Translations under genes and position numbers: made by a program | Shown: positions 10,072 through 32,010 of the stretch, one piece after another | Position numbering within the stretch: position 1 is the stretch's first letter | Layout: each line of letters starts with the position of its first letter | Source of the DNA: a virus | DNA: 33,446 nt | Direction: 5' to 3' (one strand) | IMG/VR virus record: IMGVR_UViG_3300022592_000019 | Span: 1-33,446 of that record | Notes under the pieces: generated by a model | Seen by the model: only the letters and a program-made list of their open reading frames with translations | The model's database searches: none | What the model was told of the DNA's origin: nothing

Positions 10072-11319
10072 TTAAGCAGCTACACGGCAAGCTAACTCTG
10101 GGTAGAGTGGTGCCCAACCATATAACACATCCAAACGAGTAGGAATTGAGTCATTGTTAATCGTGTATTGACGAACAACACGCATTGACAAACCAATTTC
10201 CTTATCTGAAGCACGACCAGCAAAGTGAACGCCATCTGGCAACTCAAGATCGGCTACTGCTAGAGTAAACGCATTGCGGTGCATGATGATGTTTTGTGGT
10301 GATACAACACCTGTGTTATTGAATGGTGTAACAGCTTGTGAACCAGTTGATGTTACTGATACGTTTTGGAATTGACCAGCAGTAATAACAGCAGGTGAAA
10401 CGTTTACAGTAGCTGAACCAGATGAAGCGATAGTTACAGCAGAGTTAACTACAAAGTTACGCAATTTGTTAGAGCCGTATGCTTGGCGGTTTTGTGGGTT
10501 GACTGCATAAACACCAGCAATAGTAATAACATCGCCTTGATTCAATGAAGCTGAAGCAGCAGATGTTGCAGCGATTGTGATGTTAGAGCTTTGTGCCCAA
10601 CCTGATGTCAAGAAGCCAGTTGCTGTAGTTACGTTACATGACAATACTGCTGAAGAGTAAGAACCAAATTGATGTGAAACAACGTTTTGATCCATTTTCC
10701 AGTTCATACCGCCAGAGTCACGACCCATCAAGCCTTTACGATATTGTTCGCCAATTGCTTCTTGTGGTACGAACAAACCTTTCAAGCTGTCAACGATAGT
10801 AGCTGATGTAAATGGCTCAACTGTACATGAACGACGGCCATCGCGTGGTGCGCCTTCAGCATCAAGATAAGCACCAGCAGTTAGATATGTGATCAAACCT
10901 GTTGGTGGTGTACCTGCTGTACCTACGATGTTAGCAGTAGCGTTTTTAGCTAATACTAAACCATCACGGTCAATCTTGTTGGCAATAGCAGCAACGGCTG
11001 GTTTCAATACACGATCAGAGAACATATCTAAAGATAGAGCCAAGTCTTGTGTAGTGAATTGTGTGTCAACGTGGAACTGTGTTGACAATGTTACTGGTAC
11101 TGATGTTTCGTTAAAGTCTTCAACGTTCAATGCTGGGCCAGTAGTACCGATGAAACGACCTGGTCTACGAACGTTTACTGTGTTACCAATTTTACCGCCA
11201 ACTACAGCGAATTGGTCATCGTAGTTACGATCTACTTCTGATGTAAATGTTAATTCGTTTTCCAAGACCATTAACGCTTCGTTAGTGATCTTGCTAATGG
11301 TAAGTAAGTTATTAGCCAT
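10072..11319 (-). CDS. Major capsid (coat) protein, P22 gp5 family
   Basis: This 415-residue protein begins MANNLLTISKITNEALMVLE and continues with a region (NTVNVRRPGRF; FHVDTQFTTQDLALSLDMFSDRVLKPAVAAIANKID) that I recognise as the P22-type coat protein. P22 gp5 has 430 residues, so the length fits. It builds the T=7-type shell, first on the scaffold. The central Ala/Ser/Thr-rich part (about 230-330) matches the place where the P22 family carries its inserted I-domain. The gene follows the scaffold gene with a short gap and a good AGGAAAT ribosome site. P22 coat folding needs host GroEL/ES, which is relevant to the GroES-like gene at 18247. Confidence 0.92.
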   Translation of the reverse strand: MANNLLTISKITNEALMVLENELTFTSEVDRNYDDQFAVVGGKIGNTVNVRRPGRFIGTTGPALNVEDFNETSVPVTLSTQFHVDTQFTTQDLALSLDMFSDRVLKPAVAAIANKIDRDGLVLAKNATANIVGTAGTPPTGLITYLTAGAYLDAEGAPRDGRRSCTVEPFTSATIVDSLKGLFVPQEAIGEQYRKGLMGRDSGGMNWKMDQNVVSHQFGSYSSAVLSCNVTTATGFLTSGWAQSSNITIAATSAASASLNQGDVITIAGVYAVNPQNRQAYGSNKLRNFVVNSAVTIASSGSATVNVSPAVITAGQFQNVSVTSTGSQAVTPFNNTGVVSPQNIIMHRNAFTLAVADLELPDGVHFAGRASDKEIGLSMRVVRQYTINNDSIPTRLDVLYGWAPLYPELACRVAA

Positions 11320-11352: not shown

Positions 11353-12270
11353 CTACCTTAATTTTCCTGTTTTGCGAGATTCTTTCCATTGTTGATACGT
11401 TCCATGAAACTCACCATTGGTGTCCACGCCCACATCAACAACGCCAGATGATCCCTTGATAGGATTAATAGGTGCTGGTGCTTTACTGCGAGCTACAGAA
11501 GGTTTAAATTCAGCGACAGGAGCTTCTTTACGCTCAAACTGTGCTTCCAACTTACCAATTTGTCGGAGTGCGCTAATCATAGAGCCTGCATTAAGTTTTT
11601 CAGCAATTTCTGGGTTTTCTGCCAAGTGATATAAGATTCTTGGCCCAACATCTGACTCCAGGATAGCATCACGAACGGCATCACTTACCTGCACATCCGA
11701 GCTGGCCACCATGTCTTCATAATCTGGCAACTCTGTCTTTGCTGCATCCAAACGTGATTGCCATTCAGTAAGCATCTTTTGACGTTCCTGGTTGGCCTTA
11801 CGTTCAGCTTCTTGCTTATCTCTATTAAGCAGAGCTTGTTCTGCTGACCATTCTGACAGAGCTTCTGCATATTCAAAAGCATCTGTAAATTGGTGTGGCT
11901 GTGGCTTCTCATATGCACTTGATTGAACAGGTGCTGGATTGGCCCTTTGCTCTAACTCTTTTAGCCTGCTTTCTAATGACTCACGTTGCTCACGTTCACG
12001 TTGCGCTTCTTTACGAGCATCTTCACGTTGCTTGGTAAGTTCACTAAATCGTTTCTCTAACTTTGGGTTTGGTTTCTTTTCTTCTGTTGCTTTAATTTCT
12101 TCAGATTCTTGTCCACTCTGTTCTTCCGCTTCCTCAATCGGCTCTGATTCTGGAGTTTCCTCTACAGTTTCAGCCTCAACTGGTGCTTCATCAGCTAGAC
12201 CTAATCTATTACTATAAAACTCTTCTGAATTTTCAGAAGTTAATACGTTTGCTGCTTGTTGCTCTGACAT
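11353..12270 (-). CDS. Capsid scaffolding protein (P22 gp8-like)
   Basis: This 305-residue protein starts at the ATG at 12270, preceded by GGGGA at five bases. An in-frame TTG twelve bases further up lies inside the ribosome site and is not preferred. It is very acidic in the first 70 residues, then a long charged helix/coiled coil (about 70-110 and 150-195, KQREDARKEAQREREQ), and a basic C-terminus ending 'WKESRKTGKLR'. In P22 the C-terminal helix-turn-helix of scaffold binds coat protein, and the basic end here fits. It sits directly upstream of coat, as in P22, and has its own strong promoter. Confidence 0.85.
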   Translation of the reverse strand: MSEQQAANVLTSENSEEFYSNRLGLADEAPVEAETVEETPESEPIEEAEEQSGQESEEIKATEEKKPNPKLEKRFSELTKQREDARKEAQREREQRESLESRLKELEQRANPAPVQSSAYEKPQPHQFTDAFEYAEALSEWSAEQALLNRDKQEAERKANQERQKMLTEWQSRLDAAKTELPDYEDMVASSDVQVSDAVRDAILESDVGPRILYHLAENPEIAEKLNAGSMISALRQIGKLEAQFERKEAPVAEFKPSVARSKAPAPINPIKGSSGVVDVGVDTNGEFHGTYQQWKESRKTGKLR

Positions 12271-12291
12271 GGATTTCCCCAAGATTTTTAC

Positions 12292-12517: not shown

Positions 12518-13732
12518 TTAATCTCCTAATTTTTGACCATCGTTGTCAACGTTAATTTGACCACGTTTTTGTTTAGCAATACTTACAATCTTGTTTTGAG
12601 CAATTGGATTGCCATTTTCATCTCTAGCTTGTTTAGTACCATCTTTTTTGTATTGTGGATCGTAATGAACAAAAAATCCGTTTGAATCTTTAGCTGCTGT
12701 TCTATCTTTATGAGTTGCAGCTTTTCTAGTTAACCCAACAATAACGCCTTTAGAGCCTTTAGGCTGTGTGTCTAATGGCCTAAAATCATGAGTATCGCCA
12801 CTAACAACATTATAATGTGTATTTGTTTCTTCATCATGAACATGAGATGGCAACTCTTTCCCATGACTAAAAGCCATTGCAACGTTATGGCCCTGATCTA
12901 ATTTGTTTCGCATTGAATGCCAGTTTTGATGTTCATTTTCAATGTGTTCTTCAACGTTATTTTTACCTGCTGGTTGTGTAACACCAGTTGAAGAGTAAGT
13001 TAAATGATGATTGGGAGCAATTGGCTTGGTGTTATTTTTAGTGTAGTCATAAAAAGTCACATCTGGGTGTGCTTTCATTAATGACTCAAAAACTTTAGGA
13101 TGAATGTCGCTTAATGTGTTTAATCTTATACCAAGATGATTTCCGTTTACATCGGCCATTGTTTTAGCAGCCTGGATCTCATCATGTAAACGTACAGCAA
13201 ACTCTTTAGGATTACGCAATAATGCTTGTGTTTTATTGTAACCATTTAATCGTGTGCCCTTTATAGCATCTAAATCTTTACCTCCACCGCCAAAAAAATA
13301 ACCACCAGATGTTTTACCTAAACATTCTTTTTTGCATGATTTTGAATTTGGACAAGTATTAAATTTACCTTCTTCATGAGCTGGAGATAATGATAAACCA
13401 GTAGTTTCTATTCCACTACCATCTTCCAAAGTAATGGCATTTTCTCCACCCTTTTCAGCTTTTAATAACTTTTTATTTTTACCTAACAAATCAATAGGGT
13501 TACCAGATTTGTTTCTTCCAACGTGTTGACCAACAACTTCCCTGGCGTTTCTAGAGTTTGCTACTCTTTCGCCACGAGGCAATGATGTGTGATGTGCAAT
13601 AGCTTCATCAAACGCTGTTTTAAGTGTATTAATATTAGGCTGTGCGTTAGATTTCTCTAATTGGCCACGTTTAATCATTTCATCACGATCATGTAAACTT
13701 TTGTTTTCGCTTGTAACTACTTTAATCGCCAT
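12518..13732 (-). CDS. GP88-like conserved phage protein
   Basis: This 404-residue protein has a cysteine cluster at about 127-138 (NTCPNSKSCKKECLGK). Then come an Arg/Phe-rich helix (NPKEFAVRLHDEI), 'IRLNTLSDIHP', 'LMKAHPDVTFYDYTKN' and a basic C-terminus. The order Cys cluster, R-L-N-x-x-SDI, HPD-x-x-FYDYTK resembles the phage family named gene product 88 (GP88), for which I know no established biochemical role. It lies between portal and scaffold, where P22 has no extra gene. It touches the portal stop and is coupled to a 47-residue downstream gene. It could be a minor virion protein or a DNA/RNA-acting enzyme. Function is not assigned. Confidence 0.65.
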   Translation of the reverse strand: MAIKVVTSENKSLHDRDEMIKRGQLEKSNAQPNINTLKTAFDEAIAHHTSLPRGERVANSRNAREVVGQHVGRNKSGNPIDLLGKNKKLLKAEKGGENAITLEDGSGIETTGLSLSPAHEEGKFNTCPNSKSCKKECLGKTSGGYFFGGGGKDLDAIKGTRLNGYNKTQALLRNPKEFAVRLHDEIQAAKTMADVNGNHLGIRLNTLSDIHPKVFESLMKAHPDVTFYDYTKNNTKPIAPNHHLTYSSTGVTQPAGKNNVEEHIENEHQNWHSMRNKLDQGHNVAMAFSHGKELPSHVHDEETNTHYNVVSGDTHDFRPLDTQPKGSKGVIVGLTRKAATHKDRTAAKDSNGFFVHYDPQYKKDGTKQARDENGNPIAQNKIVSIAKQKRGQINVDNDGQKLGD

Positions 13733-15846
13733 TATATGGCCCTTTCTTCAGTTTCTTGTGCAGCTCCACGCCTAGCAGCAGCATCAATTTGTGCTAATAA
13801 TAACGCAAACTGCCCTTTAATATGTTCAATTTCTTTTTGAGTTTCAGTTTTGATAATTGTATCATGCGCCTGGGTGTGTGTGCGTAGTTCTGTATCATGC
13901 CTACGTTCAGCATCACGCAACTCAATGTCATGTGCTTTAGCAGTAACTTCCATAAGTTTACGCTTGTCTGCGTGTTGCTCTTTAACTTCTTGCGTGTCTG
14001 TACGATCTTTAATAATAACTTGCAGTTGCTGGATAGTTTGTTGTGCTTGTTGCAACTGTGCAGCTTGTTGTTTAAGTTGCATCTGAATTTGTGGCGGGAT
14101 TTTAGATTTATCGTCAATCTGGGCCAATGGATTGTTTACAGCCAATCGGTCTGCAATAGTTTCAGCACCAGGGAAGTCCATGTTACGGAACACCAAGTCA
14201 CCAATCTGTGGCATCAAACTAGGATCGGCAGCAATAACAGCCATCATAGAATCTACAGCTTCTGAACGTTTACTGTTGTAGCCTGGGCCAGTTTCCATCA
14301 CGACATCATACTCACCAATAGTTACATCGTTTAATACTCTGTTCACGCCCTCTTCATCTGGGCCATAACGATTGATTGTCAATAGCTCTGGTTTGCCATC
14401 GTCACCAATAATGCGTAACACACGTTCTCTGTCGTAAATCTTTGGAATTAAGTCTAATATCACACGACCACATTGACGGATTGAACGAGTCAAGTTGTCA
14501 TAGTAATGGAAGTTGGTCATGTCAATTTGTTGTTGCTGACCTTGCAATGCTTTACCAGAGATGTTGCCTGTAGGTAGCTGACTAGGATCAAATATACCTA
14601 CTACTTGTTGTAAGTCTGATGTAATGCCAGCAGCAGCAGCCATAATGCCTGTTGGTGGCGGTTCTGGTTGTAATCGTGTTGGAGCTGGAGCTGGTCTGCC
14701 ATCAATGTCTGTTTGTTTATAGCGCAGAACTGGCATTGACTTAATGTTAGCCATAGCCCATTCATTCTCGTGGCCTTCATCCTGCCCTTCTGCAAGCAAC
14801 CATTTAGCTTTTGGTGCTAGTGCAACTGACTCTGTGATAGAAGTTGTCCAGAAGTTATACATACGTTGTGGGTCTTTAGCCATACGCACCAGGCCAAACT
14901 TCTTACGCTTGTTCTCAACTGTTAGCATCTGACCATACACAGGAATAATCGGGATATACTTACCAGCCCATGTTGACTCTTCTAATATCTCAATGCCTGT
15001 CAACTTAACCCACTTCACAACTTTACGAACTGATGGCCGTTTGTCAGCAATAGTAATGCCCTGCTCTTCCATTGCCAGTTTAATTTCGTCTGTAATTTCA
15101 TCCTGATACGCTGTAGTGCCATCAGACAACATGACAAGTGTTGCAGCTTCACGTTCTACATAAAAGTATTCAGCGATGCGGATGTCTTCTTTCATCACCC
15201 ATTCTGCGTTAGTGTCACCTGTACCACGTTGAATAAATCCTGTGCCATCATCAGCGTTTGGATATTGCTTACGGAACGCTTCTTTGCTCATTACTGTCGT
15301 GATTAAGACTTTCTCCGCATCAGAGCCATCAGGCATCGTTGAATTAGGGTCAAAATAAACTGTAAACGGATTATCAACGGGCTTAATATAAATCTCTTGG
15401 TCAAACGAGTCATTTTTACAATAGTCAGTAGTGATGCGGAAATAACCCCAACCCATACGAACAGCAAAATCAAAAGCGGTATCATAAGCAGCATCGGCAT
15501 CAGATTGCACCTCAATGTGTCTAAATATTCCAGAGATAACATCAGCCATGTGAGCATCGGCCTCTGTGTTCATGCCATGCGCTTTCATGCGTGGGCGTTG
15601 TTGGCGTTGTTGATTGGCTATCTGTCTACAGTAAGCATCAACTTTATTGATGGTAAGACATGGCCTAGCTTCTAATGTGCGTGAGTTTTGAATCTCTACA
15701 GGCCATTGATCACCAGCAGCAAACTTTAAATCTTCTAGGGCCTCGCTACGATTGTTTGAGTCAGCATCATTAGCAAACTTGAGGAACTGTTTAGCATCCT
15801 CTATACGTTTATCGTAGTCATTAGATATTGTTGTCTTTTTAGCCAT
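13732..15846 (-). CDS. Portal protein, P22 gp1 family
   Basis: This 704-residue protein has an N-terminal segment (SEALEDLKFAAGDQWP; RPCLTINKVDAYCRQIANQQRQQRPRMK) and wing/stem sequence matching P22-type portals. P22 gp1 has 725 residues. Residues about 585-690 are a long Gln/Lys/Glu-rich helix (MQLKQQAAQLQQAQQTIQQL) corresponding to the C-terminal barrel that reaches into the head. The portal is the dodecameric DNA entry ring and the docking site for terminase and the gp4-like protein. It follows the large terminase with a two-base gap. Confidence 0.92.
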   Translation of the reverse strand: MAKKTTISNDYDKRIEDAKQFLKFANDADSNNRSEALEDLKFAAGDQWPVEIQNSRTLEARPCLTINKVDAYCRQIANQQRQQRPRMKAHGMNTEADAHMADVISGIFRHIEVQSDADAAYDTAFDFAVRMGWGYFRITTDYCKNDSFDQEIYIKPVDNPFTVYFDPNSTMPDGSDAEKVLITTVMSKEAFRKQYPNADDGTGFIQRGTGDTNAEWVMKEDIRIAEYFYVEREAATLVMLSDGTTAYQDEITDEIKLAMEEQGITIADKRPSVRKVVKWVKLTGIEILEESTWAGKYIPIIPVYGQMLTVENKRKKFGLVRMAKDPQRMYNFWTTSITESVALAPKAKWLLAEGQDEGHENEWAMANIKSMPVLRYKQTDIDGRPAPAPTRLQPEPPPTGIMAAAAGITSDLQQVVGIFDPSQLPTGNISGKALQGQQQQIDMTNFHYYDNLTRSIRQCGRVILDLIPKIYDRERVLRIIGDDGKPELLTINRYGPDEEGVNRVLNDVTIGEYDVVMETGPGYNSKRSEAVDSMMAVIAADPSLMPQIGDLVFRNMDFPGAETIADRLAVNNPLAQIDDKSKIPPQIQMQLKQQAAQLQQAQQTIQQLQVIIKDRTDTQEVKEQHADKRKLMEVTAKAHDIELRDAERRHDTELRTHTQAHDTIIKTETQKEIEHIKGQFALLLAQIDAAARRGAAQETEERAI

Positions 15847-15848
15847 TG

Positions 15849-17132
15849 TTAGCCCATCCAGCTTGCGCCATAATTGTTTTGTGGTCTTGGTTTCTTACGT
15901 TCTTTAGTATCTTGTATCATCAGCCCAATGTAACGAAAAGCATCCGCACCATGAGAATAAATGTCATGTAGTGGAGTACGGGAGAACATTTTAGTGTCTG
16001 GGTCAACATCATAACGATAATGACGCAGACATTGTAATCCTTCCTCGCAATTTGTTCTGTCAAAGTAACAGCTAGTAAAGATTGTTCTTGCAGCGTTAAT
16101 AGAATCTGCAACAGGAACTCTCGGCAATACATTAGTCTTATAACCAGCATTGCGTACAATCTCTTCAATACTTCTGCCATTAGACCCAATCGTTTTACTT
16201 TCGGCATCATGTGGTAGATGTAGTGTATCATAAATATAGCCTAATTTTTGCATTTCCGCTAGATAGTGTGTGATCGTCTTTTGACTATCCTGCATATAGT
16301 TAATGAGCCTTGTTTCCATGCCTATGAACTGCACGAACCATATCGCAGTCATGTCAGCCCAACCCAAGTCAAACACAGCGTGTACAGGCTTTGTTGCATC
16401 ATACGGCACGTTAGTGATACGACCTGTGCCTTCAGCAGCTTGCATCTCTTTAGCAAAGATAGCACCATCCACAGTCATTCGGCATACACCTTCCCAGACT
16501 GTGTTATATGCTTCTATATCTCTGGCCTTTAGCGCATCTTTTTCTTGTCGTAGCGTTTCGGGGAACCAGGGATTGTCTGACCAGTTAATCTTTTGTACAA
16601 CTGCGTTCTCTGGTGGATAAGCTACAAAGCGTTGGTAAGTATCATCACCTTCTAGCTCTGGGTTAAATGATACCCATATCTCTGACTTTTCTTTACGGAT
16701 GGTTGGAATTAAGATATTCCATGATCGTGAGCTAACAGTCTGGGCCTCTTCTACCCAACAGATGTCAACACCCTCAAATGACTTTACGTTGGCAGTATTG
16801 TTCTTTAGGCCAACAAAGCTAAACTCTGTGCCGTTCTTCCCTCTGATACTGGCCTGTGTAATCTCATAAAATGATATAAGGCCCAACTCTATAATCTGAT
16901 CGCACAATAGCTTGTGAACAGAATCTTTCATAGATGTCATAAACTCTCGGGCGCATAATACACGCAATGCATTTTTTGCACCTTTAATCAATAATGCTCT
17001 AGCGATGCCCCATGACTTTGCACCACCACGACCACCATATAGTATGCGGTATCTACACTCTACAGGATCAAACAACACATTTAGTTTATCTGGAAAGTCT
17101 GCCCAAACTTTGGATGGGTCTTGCTCAAACAT
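15849..17132 (-). CDS. terL: Large terminase subunit (packaging ATPase and nuclease)
   Basis: This 427-residue protein has Walker A GGRGGAKS at 33-40, Walker B VDICWVEEA at 122-130 with the catalytic acidic pair 128-129, and coupling motif SFN near 155-157. The RNase H-type nuclease domain has acidic residues Asp255 (VFDLGWAD), Asp309 (HDAES) and Asp397 (HGADAF). The layout matches Terminase_3 (PBSX-type) enzymes that drive DNA into the procapsid and cut it. Together with the P22-type portal this fits headful packaging, which gives circularly permuted ends. The ATG overlaps the end of the small subunit by eight bases. Confidence 0.95.
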   Translation of the reverse strand: MFEQDPSKVWADFPDKLNVLFDPVECRYRILYGGRGGAKSWGIARALLIKGAKNALRVLCAREFMTSMKDSVHKLLCDQIIELGLISFYEITQASIRGKNGTEFSFVGLKNNTANVKSFEGVDICWVEEAQTVSSRSWNILIPTIRKEKSEIWVSFNPELEGDDTYQRFVAYPPENAVVQKINWSDNPWFPETLRQEKDALKARDIEAYNTVWEGVCRMTVDGAIFAKEMQAAEGTGRITNVPYDATKPVHAVFDLGWADMTAIWFVQFIGMETRLINYMQDSQKTITHYLAEMQKLGYIYDTLHLPHDAESKTIGSNGRSIEEIVRNAGYKTNVLPRVPVADSINAARTIFTSCYFDRTNCEEGLQCLRHYRYDVDPDTKMFSRTPLHDIYSHGADAFRYIGLMIQDTKERKKPRPQNNYGASWMG

Positions 17133-17433
17133 TCGTTTCTTTTGGCTTTACAAAGTTTACAGAAATAGATGTGACAAGTGGCTCACCATCTGCGCCAGTA
17201 ATCTCTTGAAACTGTATTGCTTTACCATCCACACGATCCATCAGCTCTTTAACGGCCCACGGCTCTCTAGCTATTGCAGCTTCAATCAATCCTTCAGCAA
17301 TGTCAGTCAGCTTCTGTGGATTTTGTGTCAATACTTTACGCAAAGCATCATAAAACAACTTTCCTTTAGCTGCGTTCTTATTGCCCTTCATACTCTCGGC
17401 AATTTTTTCGTTCCTGTCTAATTCAGTTGACAT
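17125..17433 (-). CDS. terS: Small terminase subunit (putative)
   Basis: This 102-residue protein has a Lys/Asn-rich N-terminus (MKGNKNAAKGKLFYDALRKVL), a helical middle (DIAEGLIEAAIAREPWAVKELMDRVDGKA) and a basic C-terminus. This layout is common in small terminase-like proteins directly upstream of terL, which recognise the packaging site. Size, position and eight-base overlap with terL support the call. There is no diagnostic catalytic motif, as expected for a DNA-recognition subunit. Confidence 0.7.
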   Translation of the reverse strand: MSTELDRNEKIAESMKGNKNAAKGKLFYDALRKVLTQNPQKLTDIAEGLIEAAIAREPWAVKELMDRVDGKAIQFQEITGADGEPLVTSISVNFVKPKETNV

Positions 17434-17926: not shown

Positions 17927-18063
17927 TTATTGCCTTTTTTCTTACTTTCACGTTTTTCTGCGTAAGCTATAGCAACGCTTTGCTTTGGTGGCTTGCCTGC
18001 TTTAATTTCTGTCTTAATGTTTTCTTCAAACGCTTTTTTGCTTTTACCTGGTTTCAATGGCAT
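17923..18063 (-). CDS. 46-residue basic protein
   Basis: The frame from the ATG at 18063 gives MPLKPGKSKKAFEENIKTEI, then AGKPPKQSVAIAYAEKRESKKKGNK. The product is highly basic, and its stop overlaps the HNH start as ATGA. The 'KPPKQSVAIAYAEKR' stretch is a pattern I recognise from small uncharacterised phage proteins. It probably binds nucleic acid or is a structural micro-protein. Coupling to genes on both sides supports expression. Confidence 0.7.
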   Translation of the reverse strand: MPLKPGKSKKAFEENIKTEIKAGKPPKQSVAIAYAEKRESKKKGNK

Positions 18064-18263
18064 ACAAATATTCCCTTTTCGTCTATGCTGTCGTTAATAA
18101 AATCTGCTGCCTCATGCAATGTATTGACTAGGATCGTTTCGTCTTCAATAAATGATGTTAGTTCAATGTATCCATCATAATCTACTGTAGCGATAGCAAG
18201 CGTGAAAGAATCTTCATCCTTTTCCGCTTCATATGACATCACTATTTTAATTAGCTGTGTCAT
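18054..18263 (-). CDS. Small acidic protein of unknown function
   Basis: This 69-residue acidic protein (MTQLIKIVMSYEAEKDEDSFTLAIATVDYDGYIEL ...) is predicted mostly beta then helical. It overlaps the GroES-like gene by 17 bases and the basic 46-residue gene by 10 bases. The start could also be the internal Met9, because neither has a clear ribosome site. No family is recognised. Confidence 0.55.
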   Translation of the reverse strand: MTQLIKIVMSYEAEKDEDSFTLAIATVDYDGYIELTSFIEDETILVNTLHEAADFINDSIDEKGIFVCH

Positions 18264-18558
18264 CTTGTACGAAAACTACATCCTGCCATGACATGACTAA
18301 ATGTCTTTCGTTATTAATAAAACACTCTTGATATTTTAAATATTCTTCTTTTGAATCTCTACCCATTGTGCCAAAGCGTACGAACTGACCCACCTTTACT
18401 GGCATATCTTCACGTTTAGAGTTGTCAATTTTTCTGCCTGGTCCAACTGCAATGACAGTCCCCATGTTATCGGCCTCTTCCATTATGACTTCAATGATAG
18501 AGCTTTTAACACGAGGAATAGGCTTAACTAATATCTTATCGCCTAATGGTTTAATCAT
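18247..18558 (-). CDS. GroES-like co-chaperonin (Cpn10)
   Basis: This 103-residue protein begins MIKPLGDKILVKPIPRVKSS, which matches the GroES first strand (PLGD-x-x-LVKP). A mobile-loop region with an Ile/Val-rich tip follows at about 20-27, then the signature MGTVIAVGPG at 32-41 and PVKVGQFVRFG at 53-63, and a C-terminal strand near 88-98. GroES has about 97 residues, so the length fits a full Cpn10 ring subunit. Phage co-chaperonins such as T4 gp31 pair with host GroEL to fold the coat protein, and P22-type coat is a known GroEL/ES client. It sits in the accessory block before terminase. Host-derived or phage-evolved origin cannot be told here. Confidence 0.85.
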   Translation of the reverse strand: MIKPLGDKILVKPIPRVKSSIIEVIMEEADNMGTVIAVGPGRKIDNSKREDMPVKVGQFVRFGTMGRDSKEEYLKYQECFINNERHLVMSWQDVVFVQDDTAN

Positions 18559-18738
18559 TTATGCGTACTTTGCCACTTCTAAAACTAGAGCATCTGCTTT
18601 TGATTTGATAGCGTCTACATCAGCATCTACCCAATCAGTAAATGTTGCTTCTGCTGCTGCTAAAGATGATTCTAGATTAGCCACTTGTGCGTTAGCAATG
18701 TCTAATTTAGCTTGAATTATTTGTTTTAATGTTGTCAT
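18559..18738 (-). CDS. 59-residue alanine-rich helical protein
   Basis: The ATG at 18738 has AGGA at about eight bases. The product (MTTLKQIIQAKLDIANAQVA ... ADALVLEVAKYA) is almost entirely predicted helix, with Ala/Leu heptads suggesting a small coiled coil. Its stop is one base from the GroES-like start codon, so the two are coupled. No function is recognised. Confidence 0.65.
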   Translation of the reverse strand: MTTLKQIIQAKLDIANAQVANLESSLAAAEATFTDWVDADVDAIKSKADALVLEVAKYA

Positions 18739-18747
18739 GATATATCC

Positions 18748-19002
18748 TTAAATTGATTTTTTGGGTCTGCCTGGTTTTCTTACTGGTGGTTCATCTATCT
18801 GAATTGCATCATAGATGTTTTTAATTTCGTCATTAGCGTAAATTAAATCATCAACTGAAATAGGGAAAAGTGTGTATTCGCCACACCAGTCATTGTCGTG
18901 CTTATTGATAGCTTGAGGGAATCTATGACATTCACCTAAAATGCCACCAGAAATAAAGAATTTACAACTTGCACAATTTTGTTTAGTATTCATATCAGTC
19001 AT
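18748..19002 (-). CDS. Small Cys-rich protein with basic C-terminus
   Basis: This 84-residue protein has CASCKFF (Cys10, Cys13), GECHRFP (Cys25) and DWCGEY (Cys40), a four-cysteine pattern typical of a small zinc-binding fold. An acidic middle follows, and a C-terminal 'RKPGRPKKS' that looks like an AT-hook and could bind the minor groove of AT-rich DNA. GGAGA lies seven bases before the ATG. It follows the stem-loop at 19030-19062. A DNA-binding or regulatory role is possible but unproven. Confidence 0.65.
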   Translation of the reverse strand: MTDMNTKQNCASCKFFISGGILGECHRFPQAINKHDNDWCGEYTLFPISVDDLIYANDEIKNIYDAIQIDEPPVRKPGRPKKSI

Positions 19003-19029: not shown

Positions 19030-19071
19030 AACCCTAGCTGGCCTCTCCACCAGACTAGGGTTTGTTTTTTA
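19030..19071 (+). terminator. Terminator-like stem-loop oriented on the plus strand
   Basis: A 12-base-pair GC-containing stem (AACCCTAG and CTGG pairing with CCAG and CTAGGGTT, one bulged A) with an eight-base loop is followed on the plus strand by TTTGTTTTTTATTT. This is a textbook plus-strand terminator, yet all neighbouring genes run on the minus strand. On the minus strand it lies just after the stop of the 19069-19326 gene without a T tail. It may block antisense transcription or act as an mRNA processing or stability element. Confidence 0.65.
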
Positions 19072-19326
19072 TTTGTCTTGATCGTGAGCAACACGCTTGT
19101 GATCGTAAACAACTTTCTCGCTTGCGCCACCTTTACATTCGCCAAGCTGACCATCAAACTTACCAGCATGACTTAATGGGCGTAAACCCATAGCATCGGC
19201 TTTACCCATTGCAACGCCACCAGTTAGTTTCATTTTGCGTTCGCCTGTTGTATCAGATGCGTTCACACCTTTTGGTAGCTTTTCGCCACTCATGCCTTTA
19301 GCAGGCTTTGTATCTTCCATACCCAT
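19069..19326 (-). CDS. Uncharacterised small basic protein
   Basis: This 85-residue protein is Gly/Lys-rich and probably disordered at the start (KPAKGMSGEKLPKG) with two GMSGE/GKADAMG-like turns and a charged end (KVVYDHKRVAHDQDK). GGAA lies seven bases before the ATG. Its leader contains a 16-base palindrome. It does not match a family I recognise. It may be a minor virion or nucleic-acid-associated protein. Confidence 0.55.
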   Translation of the reverse strand: MGMEDTKPAKGMSGEKLPKGVNASDTTGERKMKLTGGVAMGKADAMGLRPLSHAGKFDGQLGECKGGASEKVVYDHKRVAHDQDK

Positions 19327-26185: not shown

Positions 26186-26938
26186 TTAAAAGTTTGCTAC
26201 AATAGTAGATAGCGGAACGGCAACTTCATTAAAAGAGCCATCTTTAACATCGTTTAATACATACAGCCCTCTAAAATGATTATTGCCTTGCGCTCCCAAA
26301 TACGCTTCATCGTGTTCATAACACGAACCACAGATAATTGCACATAATGGCTTACCTGATGCTGTCTTACCATAAGCTACTTGACGGCCTTGTTGATGGC
26401 CAGCGAACGCACTCATGTGTAGTTTGTTAAGCATTTGTTGAGCTGTACCGATTGGTCTACCCATTAACCCAGATGTGAAGTAGTGAGAGAAGGCCACACC
26501 TTCTATAGTGACAACATCAAGAAACGGATAAACTTCAAAATCCTGGTACGGAAGATCGTCAATAGAAATAAGACCATCTAGTTTTCTATCGTTGTTAATC
26601 GCTGTCAAAATTCTCTGTTCATGGTTACCCAAAGTAAGCACCATGCGTGGTTTGTATTGCTTGTCTTTATTCTTTTTGGCTTTTGCATTAAATTCATACA
26701 AAGGTGTCAGCAAAGCATCTATAGCTTCACGAGCAGCTTGCACGTCTTTCTGATATGAACGACCCTCAAAAGATTTTTTACCTACATCATAGGAGCTTAA
26801 ACTCTCCATGTCCGAAAAATCGCCTATGCACACCACACAATTTGGTTTCTCTTTAAGAATAAAGTTTCCTATGGAAGTAAGAAAACTGAAATCTACGCCA
26901 TCTTTAGCCTGGACATCAGGCAGAACTATAATTTTCAT
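26186..26938 (-). CDS. Calcineurin-like metallophosphoesterase
   Basis: This 250-residue protein has the metallophosphoesterase order: Asp8-x-Gln10 (PDVQ in place of D-x-H), GD with Asp40, GNHE at 104-107, His152 (FSHYF) and GHQ at 180-182. These metals and residues cleave phosphodiesters or phosphomonoesters, and phage members of this family are common, with mostly unknown targets. The first-motif histidine is replaced by Gln, which occurs in some active phage members. It sits between the lysis genes and pqqA on the same strand, with a short leader. Confidence 0.8.
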   Translation of the reverse strand: MKIIVLPDVQAKDGVDFSFLTSIGNFILKEKPNCVVCIGDFSDMESLSSYDVGKKSFEGRSYQKDVQAAREAIDALLTPLYEFNAKAKKNKDKQYKPRMVLTLGNHEQRILTAINNDRKLDGLISIDDLPYQDFEVYPFLDVVTIEGVAFSHYFTSGLMGRPIGTAQQMLNKLHMSAFAGHQQGRQVAYGKTASGKPLCAIICGSCYEHDEAYLGAQGNNHFRGLYVLNDVKDGSFNEVAVPLSTIVANF

Positions 26939-29316: not shown

Positions 29317-32010
29317 TTATTCCTTACCTATGTCTGATAATTTAGTAATAACGTTAGAAGTGGCTGGAAACATATTTGCACCAACACCATAAACTGCTGT
29401 TTTAGTTGCTACTTTTGGAAGTGTTTTTGTAAGCAATTGTTTACGCATTGTATCGCCACTCATGCCAGCACCAAATTCATATTTAAGTCTATTACGTTCT
29501 TTTTCTGCCATTGATGCTGCTGTGGCTTCTGCATTTTTAGATAATTTATTTACAGTTGATGCAATAGGTAATTGAGTTGCTAAATCAATTGCACCAGCTA
29601 CTAAATTACCTGCATTTTCACTTCCTTGTTTATTTTCTTGCTGTTGTTGTGTAAAAAATTTTCTTAATGAACTACCAGTTCCTGACGTACTTACATGATG
29701 TCCAACAGGTAAATTAAATGCGGCATCAGCTACTTCACCAAAATTCTTTAATTTCTTAATAAAATTAGTAGATTGTTGAGTAACAGCATCAATTTCAGCT
29801 TGTGTCATGTTTTTAGTAATTGAAGGTTGAAATATTAAATCCAACTTTTTATTATCTTCTAAATTTTTTAGTATTTTATTATATGTAGCTGCGCTAAAAC
29901 CATTTGCAGATTTGGTAGATTCAGTTCTTATGTGATTTAATACTCCAGCTTGCATATTTTGCATTGCAACAGGGTCATCTTTAATTAAATCAATATAATT
30001 AGCTAACTCTTTATTTTTTGCTTTAATAATATATGAAGAATTAAAATTATCAGGACTTAATTTTCCATTTTTAAAATCTGCATAAGTTTCATTATATAAA
30101 GGACTATTTTCATCTTGCATTTGTTTTTCATGTCTTGCTAAAGAACGGGCTTGATCGGCCGCTGTTTTTAATTCAGCAGTTGCGCCTTCTGGTATTGGCA
30201 AGTTTTCCATTTCATCTCTAATTAAACCTAAAGCGTGTTTGCTTTTTTCTCCAATAGTCCTATCTCTTCTAATTGTTTCAATGTCGCTTCTTAATTTGTC
30301 AAATTTTGCAAAATTCATTGAAACTTTACCATTTGCATAATCTTGAACTTGCTTTAAGATTTTACCTGCATCATTTGATAAAGGTTTTCCTTCATGGTCT
30401 GTAAGCCAAAGAATTTCATTTTCAGAATTTAATCTATCAAGTGCATTTTTACCCAATACAGTTCCATCAACTGGCAAATTACCACCATTTAAGTCTGCAA
30501 CTTTTTGATATGCAGAACTAATTGCTGATTTTAATGAATCAGCTTTTTTTGCAATGCTTTTAATTTGTTCTTCTGCCGTTGAAAAATGACCAGAATCTTG
30601 AACTAATGGCGATGTTTCATTAATAAAATGATTTAAATTTTCTCTTGCTTGTAAATTTTGATGATTTTGATGTTCATTAAATTTGTTTGTAGCTCTGTTT
30701 TCTCTTTCTTCAGAAACCAAACCAGCATCTTTTGTAGCTTGAGCATCAGTAAGGCTTAATGGGGCAGGTAAAGATTGATCTTTAGCATGAAGTCCAACAG
30801 CAGTTTCATTTAATACTTTTCCTGCATTAACATCTTTAACAATTTTTTCTTGTATGCTTGGTGGTGCTTCAGAAATAATTTGTTTTGTTTCATCAGATAA
30901 ATTTGATTTGCCAGCAGCTTCTACTGCTTGTTTTGCCAAATCTGATGTTGCACCTGTTACTGCGCCTGTAGATACTGTTGGATTTGTTTTGCTACGCATC
31001 CAATCCCATGCTTCACCTGCTTTATTAGCACCATAACCTAATACTTTAGATGCGCCATAAGCAATTGGTGCAGTTAAAGCACCGCCAAGCATACCACCAC
31101 CAACTTGTTCTGCTTTTTTAAGCCAATAATCTAAAGGGTTTTCAACGTCAGGAGTTCCTTGCATAATTCCTGCCATTCCACCACCTTTAGCACCTTGCCC
31201 CATCAATCCTAAAATTGATGAACCTGTTTGAATATCACCAACAGGCATTAAAGCAGATGGTGTAGCACCAACAATTTCACCCGATAAATTGTATCCAGGA
31301 TGCTCTATACGATAAGGTTCATTTTCTTGTGCAATTTCTGTTGATTGTTTATTTAACCAATTTCTAGGTGCGTTATAACCAAATTGAGCAGGTATTTGCG
31401 AAACAAGTTGTGGAATACCAATCAAACTTTGTTCTCCACCAGTTTTTGCACCAGACACAAATGATTCAAGCCCACCTTTAGGAACAATGTTTTTTCCTAT
31501 TGATGATGTAGTTTGATTATTAGTATTATCATTTATTACACTTGACCAATCAAAATCAGATGTAGGAGTTTCATTTTGTTTTGCAGTTGGCATTAAAGTA
31601 GCATGAACAGGATCGGCTTTTCCTAATGGCCTATGAATACCATATTTATTAAGATGAGATTCTGGGATATTTTCTGGAATATCTAAAGCATCTGTATGGA
31701 ACATTTCTTTTTCTGGATGATCATCGGGATTAACAGGCATATAAATGCCCTTTTCACCTTTTTTTGATCTTTCAAAAATTTCTTTTTGTTTTTCTCTGCT
31801 TCGTGCAGCACTAGTGACAGGAATGTGTTGACCTGTTTTTTCAAACCAAGCCTCATCTGCTTGTTGAAATGCAGAAGTTAATGCAGGATTTGTATTTTTA
31901 AATTCATTAGTAGACGGAACAGAAACAACAGGCGCATTAACTTGCATCCCTTTTGATGTTTTAGTAATACTTGGGTCTATTTCATTCCAATTAAAATCGC
32001 TTTCACTCAT
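29317..32010 (-). CDS. Ejection protein with N-terminal M15-like peptidase domain
   Basis: This 897-residue protein has three parts. Residues 45-145 contain a peptidase M15-like core: 'HIPVTSAARSREKQKEIF' (Arg70, Ser71), 'MFHTDALDIP' (His105, Asp110) and 'GKADPVHATL' (His136). These residues bind zinc in D,D-peptidases that trim cell-wall peptides. The spacing of the second motif is shorter than usual, so activity is likely but unproven. A second part (about 185-340) is Gly/Ala-rich. The rest (about 360-800) is long and helical, like P22-type ejection proteins. Motif 'SDFNW' near residue 4 recurs as 'SDFDW' near 148, hinting at a duplicated binding peptide. The enzyme would open the wall during DNA entry. 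Confidence 0.75.
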   Translation of the reverse strand: MSESDFNWNEIDPSITKTSKGMQVNAPVVSVPSTNEFKNTNPALTSAFQQADEAWFEKTGQHIPVTSAARSREKQKEIFERSKKGEKGIYMPVNPDDHPEKEMFHTDALDIPENIPESHLNKYGIHRPLGKADPVHATLMPTAKQNETPTSDFDWSSVINDNTNNQTTSSIGKNIVPKGGLESFVSGAKTGGEQSLIGIPQLVSQIPAQFGYNAPRNWLNKQSTEIAQENEPYRIEHPGYNLSGEIVGATPSALMPVGDIQTGSSILGLMGQGAKGGGMAGIMQGTPDVENPLDYWLKKAEQVGGGMLGGALTAPIAYGASKVLGYGANKAGEAWDWMRSKTNPTVSTGAVTGATSDLAKQAVEAAGKSNLSDETKQIISEAPPSIQEKIVKDVNAGKVLNETAVGLHAKDQSLPAPLSLTDAQATKDAGLVSEERENRATNKFNEHQNHQNLQARENLNHFINETSPLVQDSGHFSTAEEQIKSIAKKADSLKSAISSAYQKVADLNGGNLPVDGTVLGKNALDRLNSENEILWLTDHEGKPLSNDAGKILKQVQDYANGKVSMNFAKFDKLRSDIETIRRDRTIGEKSKHALGLIRDEMENLPIPEGATAELKTAADQARSLARHEKQMQDENSPLYNETYADFKNGKLSPDNFNSSYIIKAKNKELANYIDLIKDDPVAMQNMQAGVLNHIRTESTKSANGFSAATYNKILKNLEDNKKLDLIFQPSITKNMTQAEIDAVTQQSTNFIKKLKNFGEVADAAFNLPVGHHVSTSGTGSSLRKFFTQQQQENKQGSENAGNLVAGAIDLATQLPIASTVNKLSKNAEATAASMAEKERNRLKYEFGAGMSGDTMRKQLLTKTLPKVATKTAVYGVGANMFPATSNVITKLSDIGKE

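Follow-up and report, generated by a model that had tools for sequence, protein, structure and literature searches.

The co-chaperonin gene and its neighbourhood

The window, i.e. the whole stretch of DNA analysed here, is the 33,446-base IMG/VR virus record IMGVR_UViG_3300022592_000019. As judged by Pfam and PHROG profiles, it carries the P22-type portal, scaffold and coat genes in this order, which is the head module of a P22-like podophage. The sequence-only reading had described a small P22-like phage, and both the size of the record and the matches to P22_portal, P22_CoatProtein, Terminase_3 and the PHROG 8865 scaffolding family bear this out. The genes that concern us, in their order along the minus strand, are:

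18559-18738, minus strand: 59-aa coiled-coil-like ORF directly upstream of cpn10, as seen from its sequence
18247-18558, minus strand: cpn10, 103-aa GroES-like co-chaperonin (Pfam PF00166, PHROG 3188, AF2 model)
17125-17433, minus strand: putative small terminase subunit (TerS), 102 aa, just upstream of TerL and kept in relatives; weak profile evidence
15849-17132, minus strand: large terminase subunit (TerL; Pfam Terminase_3, 132 bits)
13732-15846, minus strand: P22-like portal protein (Pfam P22_portal, 585 bits)
11353-12282, minus strand: head scaffolding protein (PHROG 8865, E 2.4e-40)
10072-11319, minus strand: P22-like coat protein, 44 kDa (Pfam P22_CoatProtein, 116 bits), a putative client of the co-chaperonin

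The cpn10 gene lies inside a tightly packed operon, since its ATG abuts the TAA of the 59-aa ORF and the following ORF (18054-18263) begins before cpn10 has ended. Pfam and PHROG give no confident family for the 59-aa ORF. Further upstream, positions 18748-19002 (minus strand) encode a small protein rich in Cys (C-x2-C ... C ... WCGE), whose match to HIPIP stays below threshold; it co-occurs with cpn10 in 60 loci and is likely a small metal-binding protein travelling with the operon. The nameless 85-aa protein encoded at 19069-19326 (minus strand) has relatives just upstream of cpn10 in most loci, with a match in 111 loci and in 20 of the 24 portal-selected loci described below. Between the portal and scaffold genes there is a GP88-family protein (Pfam PF17338; 12518-13732, minus strand), which only five of the fetched sequences have. 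Other phage genes in the record encode a Sak-type annealing protein, SSB, NinG and an endolysin, and there is a metallo-phosphoesterase gene (PHROG 221) at 26186-26938 on the minus strand; one relative has a calcineurin-like phosphoesterase, and in Xanthomonas phage PBR31 the gene for a lambda-type protein phosphatase immediately precedes cpn10. We detected no Rfam matches and no tRNAs within the 33.4-kb record.

The sequence-only reading had placed a GroES-like co-chaperonin at 18247-18558. These coordinates are correct, with the gene on the minus strand; the plus strand of the interval is full of stops and contains no open frame. The signatures that it had pointed to, PLGD, LVKP and MGTVIAVGPG, all lie within the 103-aa ORF, which starts with ATG. 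The protein matches Pfam Cpn10 (PF00166) with a score of 39 bits, above the cut-off of 21.1 (E 8.7e-10, profile positions 2-89 of 93) and PHROG 3188, ‘co-chaperonin GroES’, at E 6.4e-11, while a phmmer search against solved chains retrieved the Thermus Cpn10 structure 1wnr at E 4.4e-9. None of the curated NCBIfam GroES subfamily cut-offs was reached, the best score being 38.6 bits as compared to the required 96 (NF001531), and the protein is therefore not a canonical bacterial GroES. Profile, fold, tree and synteny all point to a GroES-like co-chaperonin; as judged from sequence and structural model, the protein is a true Cpn10. The annotation of the gene is thus correct and ordinary, with variation in the loop, the insert and the roof adding some interest.

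Predicted fold and anatomy

We built an AlphaFold2 (AF2) monomer model on an alignment of 59 family members, with two rows from annotated records excluded. The model is of moderate confidence (mean pLDDT 75.5, pTM 0.65), and pLDDT averages 55 over residues 21-30, as expected for a flexible mobile loop. When the model was compared to the PDB with Foldseek, the best 36 chains without exception were Cpn10-like or contained a Cpn10 domain (lowest E 1.5e-6), with T4 gp31 at ranks 35-36. VIA-align gave Z scores of 12.0 to Mycobacterium tuberculosis Cpn10 (1p3h), 11.5 to Escherichia coli GroES in complex, 6.8-7.3 to gp31 (1g31/2cgt) and below 6.2 to medium-chain dehydrogenases, in which the barrel also occurs. 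The top matches among viral models were annotated GroES of uncultured Caudovirales. By both Foldseek and VIA-align, then, the model has the Cpn10 beta-barrel fold that the original identification called for.

For the anatomy of the protein, we compared 64 phage family proteins with 74 bacterial Cpn10, and followed residue conservation in 59 relatives. The parts in question are:

18463-18537, minus strand: mobile-loop segment, residues 8-32 (25 residues between D7 and G33, 29 in bacterial Cpn10; low pLDDT)
18487-18504, minus strand: loop tip SSIIEV, residues 19-24, counterpart of GG-IVL in GroES by phmmer alignment to 1wnr
18391-18441, minus strand: roof hairpin, residues 40-56, of full length in the window protein (17 between G39 and G57)
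18322-18363, minus strand: insert with an EYLK motif, residues 66-79, absent from bacterial GroES

The D7-G33 segment measures 24-26 residues in all 64 phage proteins and 29 in 73 of the 74 bacterial ones, i.e. it is 3-5 residues shorter in the phage family, usually 4. The glycine that precedes the hydrophobic tip in 73/74 bacterial Cpn10 is found in none of the phage proteins (0/64). While the sequence-only reading was right that the tip is Ile/Val-rich yet unlike the usual I-V-L (SSIIEV as compared to G-I-V-L), its description of the loop missed both the segment shortened by four residues and the lost glycine. Loop residues rank among the most conserved of the window protein: P13, R16, S19, E28 and G33 are invariant in 59/59 relatives, and in the tip itself fully conserved S19 is accompanied by V/I/L at position 21 (56/59), I/L at 22 (53/59) and V/I at 24 (54/59). 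Since a G-hydrophobic tip is found in other phage Cpn10, e.g. in Serratia phage BF and Pectobacterium phage CBB, the short glycine-less loop marks this group and not phage GroES generally.

The roof hairpin is cut to 8-10 residues in 13 of the 64 family members, a truncation with two or more independent origins on a tree computed with the roof columns left out. The spacing between F62 and M89 is 20-26 in the phage proteins as compared to 16-19 in bacteria, and the insert residues Y73 and L74 are present in 59/59 relatives. T4 gp31 is likewise a phage-encoded lid with the Cpn10 fold (Z of about 7 to 1g31/2cgt), approximately 10-13% identical to the window protein; its mobile loops have 22 residues versus 16 in GroES, and it has no roof (PMC6318259). 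The window protein shares neither trait: its loop segment is shortened (25 versus 29) and its roof kept (17), although some of its relatives are roofless. Conceivably, if against our expectation, the family of this freshwater P22-like lineage is a distinct class of co-chaperonin, in which the short glycine-less loop and the EYLK insert would alter both the mode of GroEL binding and the shape of the cavity, the roof would have been lost more than once, to the state seen in gp31, and the lid would have co-evolved with the coat.

Distribution and relation to host GroES

A profile search found relatives of the window cpn10 on at least 439 viral contigs. To avoid circularity, we also picked loci by the portal gene alone, taking the best 80 portal matches at 65% identity or more; cpn10 is present in all 24 of these loci with 4.5 kb or more of sequence upstream of the portal gene. 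Given how the portal set was drawn, this universality applies to this lineage only. In all 99 loci that have cpn10, TerL and portal the three genes share a strand; 98 of these loci show the order cpn10-TerL-portal, and the one that departs from it is a circular record that happens to begin at the gene. A wider distribution among P22-like phages was rejected: in the 17 named records with a P22 portal, we found Cpn10 only in MW202520, MW202674, Xanthomonas phage PBR31 and phage DSL-LC05, and none in the other 13, P22 included, which implies that P22-type heads need no Cpn10 in general.

MW202520 and MW202674 (Caudoviricetes sp., Manatee Spring) belong to the same P22-like phage type and carry a Cpn10 of the same family at the same place (62% and 50% identity, respectively); both copies are already ‘co-chaperonin groes’ in GenBank, and the roof hairpin, kept in the window copy, is truncated in both. 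In PBR31 (QIN95328, ‘co-chaperonin GroES’) and in Burkholderia/Paraburkholderia prophages, Cpn10 lies just upstream of TerS-TerL-portal-scaffold-coat, with homologous portal and coat. The PBR31-type protein is approximately 30% identical to that of the window, occupies a separate tree branch and has a loop segment of 35 residues with a classical SAG-hydrophobic tip. Phage DSL-LC05 encodes an 82-aa roofless Cpn10 (29730-29978) between TerL and portal, unlike the place of the gene in the window lineage; this different genomic place suggests a separate gain. Podophages of the HTVC023P type, whose 13 core genes include the co-chaperonin GroES (PMC9599517), are marine pelagiphages of approximately 59 kb, likened here to the window phage by description.

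Bacterial GroES (E. coli, Methylococcales, Burkholderiales) has the same fold, belongs to the same family and is approximately 30% identical to the window protein, but differs in its 29-residue loop segment, the glycine before the tip and the lack of the strand insert. Such homology could mean that a host groES was recently captured and is carried as passive cargo, which we consider highly improbable and have rejected on the basis of the tree and of a score gap within the same metagenome-assembled genomes (MAGs). A tree of 94 Cpn10 proteins separates the 64 copies of P22-like phages, with branch support of 98/87, from 27 bacterial, two PBR31-type and one DSL sequence, although its deeper order is of limited reliability given the small number of columns and the long branches. 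Phage contigs of this type occur in MAGs of a Methylococcales bacterium, a beta proteobacterium and a Burkholderiales bacterium, binning being weak evidence of host. All three MAGs have their own groEL with an adjoining canonical groES that scores approximately 116-120 bits to PF00166, as compared to approximately 38 bits for the phage copies in the two MAGs where the copy passed. A third Cpn10-like frame, scoring 28 bits and highly diverged, lies on a different contig of the Methylococcales MAG. Across 473 pairwise comparisons the median dN/dS is 0.22, with dS partly saturated, indicating purifying selection; together with the presence of cpn10 in all 24 portal-selected loci, this argues that the gene is not stray cargo. 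Tree and synteny therefore support the proposal that the phage has a dedicated version, set apart from the GroES of its host.

A candidate lid for host GroEL

Phage-encoded GroES is already well established, as attested by the gp31 family, by the 1,348 phage records matched here and by the core gene of HTVC023P-type phages (PMC9599517). We searched for GroEL in the window and in 12 relatives, several of whose records are fragments, and found none; a phage-encoded GroEL partner was accordingly rejected, and it is the host GroEL ring that would be used. This result and the conserved hydrophobic residues of the loop tip make it plausible, from the sequence, that the window Cpn10 acts as a lid on host GroEL. 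In our preferred reading, which we regard as probable, it is a phage-dedicated co-chaperonin that closes host GroEL over phage proteins, the likeliest client being the coat or another protein of the head and packaging module. The 103-aa protein, predicted to fold as a Cpn10 subunit, would form a heptameric ring by analogy with GroES; its mobile loops would dock with their hydrophobic tip, S-S-I-I-x-V, in the apical groove of host GroEL, so that the chamber is shut around freshly synthesised phage proteins, of which the P22-type coat or a further product of the module is the most likely. The phage would supply the lid alone, with affinity or the shape of the cavity presumably adjusted to the clients by the changed loop and the extra strand insert.

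How the tip would engage GroEL depends on the register of the alignment. The IVL tripeptide of GroES binds GroEL helices H and I, contacting L234, L237 and V264, and the L27A substitution in GroES abolishes the interaction with GroEL (PMC3514286). In the HMM register, the position of this essential L27 is deleted or occupied by Glu in the window protein, which counts against the protein being a lid. Only the shifted register I22-x-V24 retains both outer hydrophobic contacts, and it is probably the better one, since it is position 23 that varies among family members. Alternatively, the protein may have the Cpn10 fold but not bind GroEL, serving e.g. as a ring-shaped assembly factor or as an accessory to DNA packaging or the head. 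The absence of the tip glycine from the whole phage family, the shorter loop, the deleted or acidic counterpart of L27, the conserved EYLK insert and the position of cpn10 beside the terminase genes would all fit; we nevertheless find this doubtful, because the tip hydrophobics and the rest of the loop are highly conserved, as if the loop still binds something, and because PBR31 and the Burkholderia prophages keep the classical tip at the same genomic place. That this divergent lineage retains a Cpn10 there, next to a homologous portal and coat, supports the lid on GroEL.

As to the client, the coat or tail proteins named by the sequence-only reading are inferred on two grounds, synteny with packaging and head genes and precedent. 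Folding of the P22 coat uses GroEL/ES. The T4 lid gp31 replaces GroES and allows gp23 to fold (PMC6318259). At 44 kDa the coat of the window phage fits the ordinary cage, and a special or larger lid is not needed for its size; coat size was rejected as the reason for a special lid, with lengths of 414-421 aa in roofless (n = 5) and 398-423 aa in the remaining phages (n = 24) showing no clear difference. The 13 named P22-portal phages that lack Cpn10, P22 among them, speak against the lid. It may also be that the protein binds host GroEL but mainly takes it over or retunes it for infection generally, through client spectrum, cycling speed or blocking of host folding or defence, rather than serving one head protein. 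The MAGs already have a host GroES, so that a lid would be at hand without any phage copy, and the loop differs systematically from that of host GroES, which could change affinity and cycling. We judge such retuning to be rather unlikely, as cpn10 is constantly linked with packaging and head genes and not with early genes; its late-operon position suggests a role in morphogenesis.

Our search of the open-access literature turned up no study that deals with GroES in P22-like phages from freshwater. The closing of host GroEL by a phage-dedicated lid would extend the idea of gp31 to a very common type of small freshwater phage with the lid gene in its head operon. The family also provides a natural series of lids, with a short loop without glycine and with the roof kept or lost, for asking how loop and roof set GroEL affinity and the choice of client, and it raises the question of why a lineage with a P22-type head needs its own lid while P22 has none.
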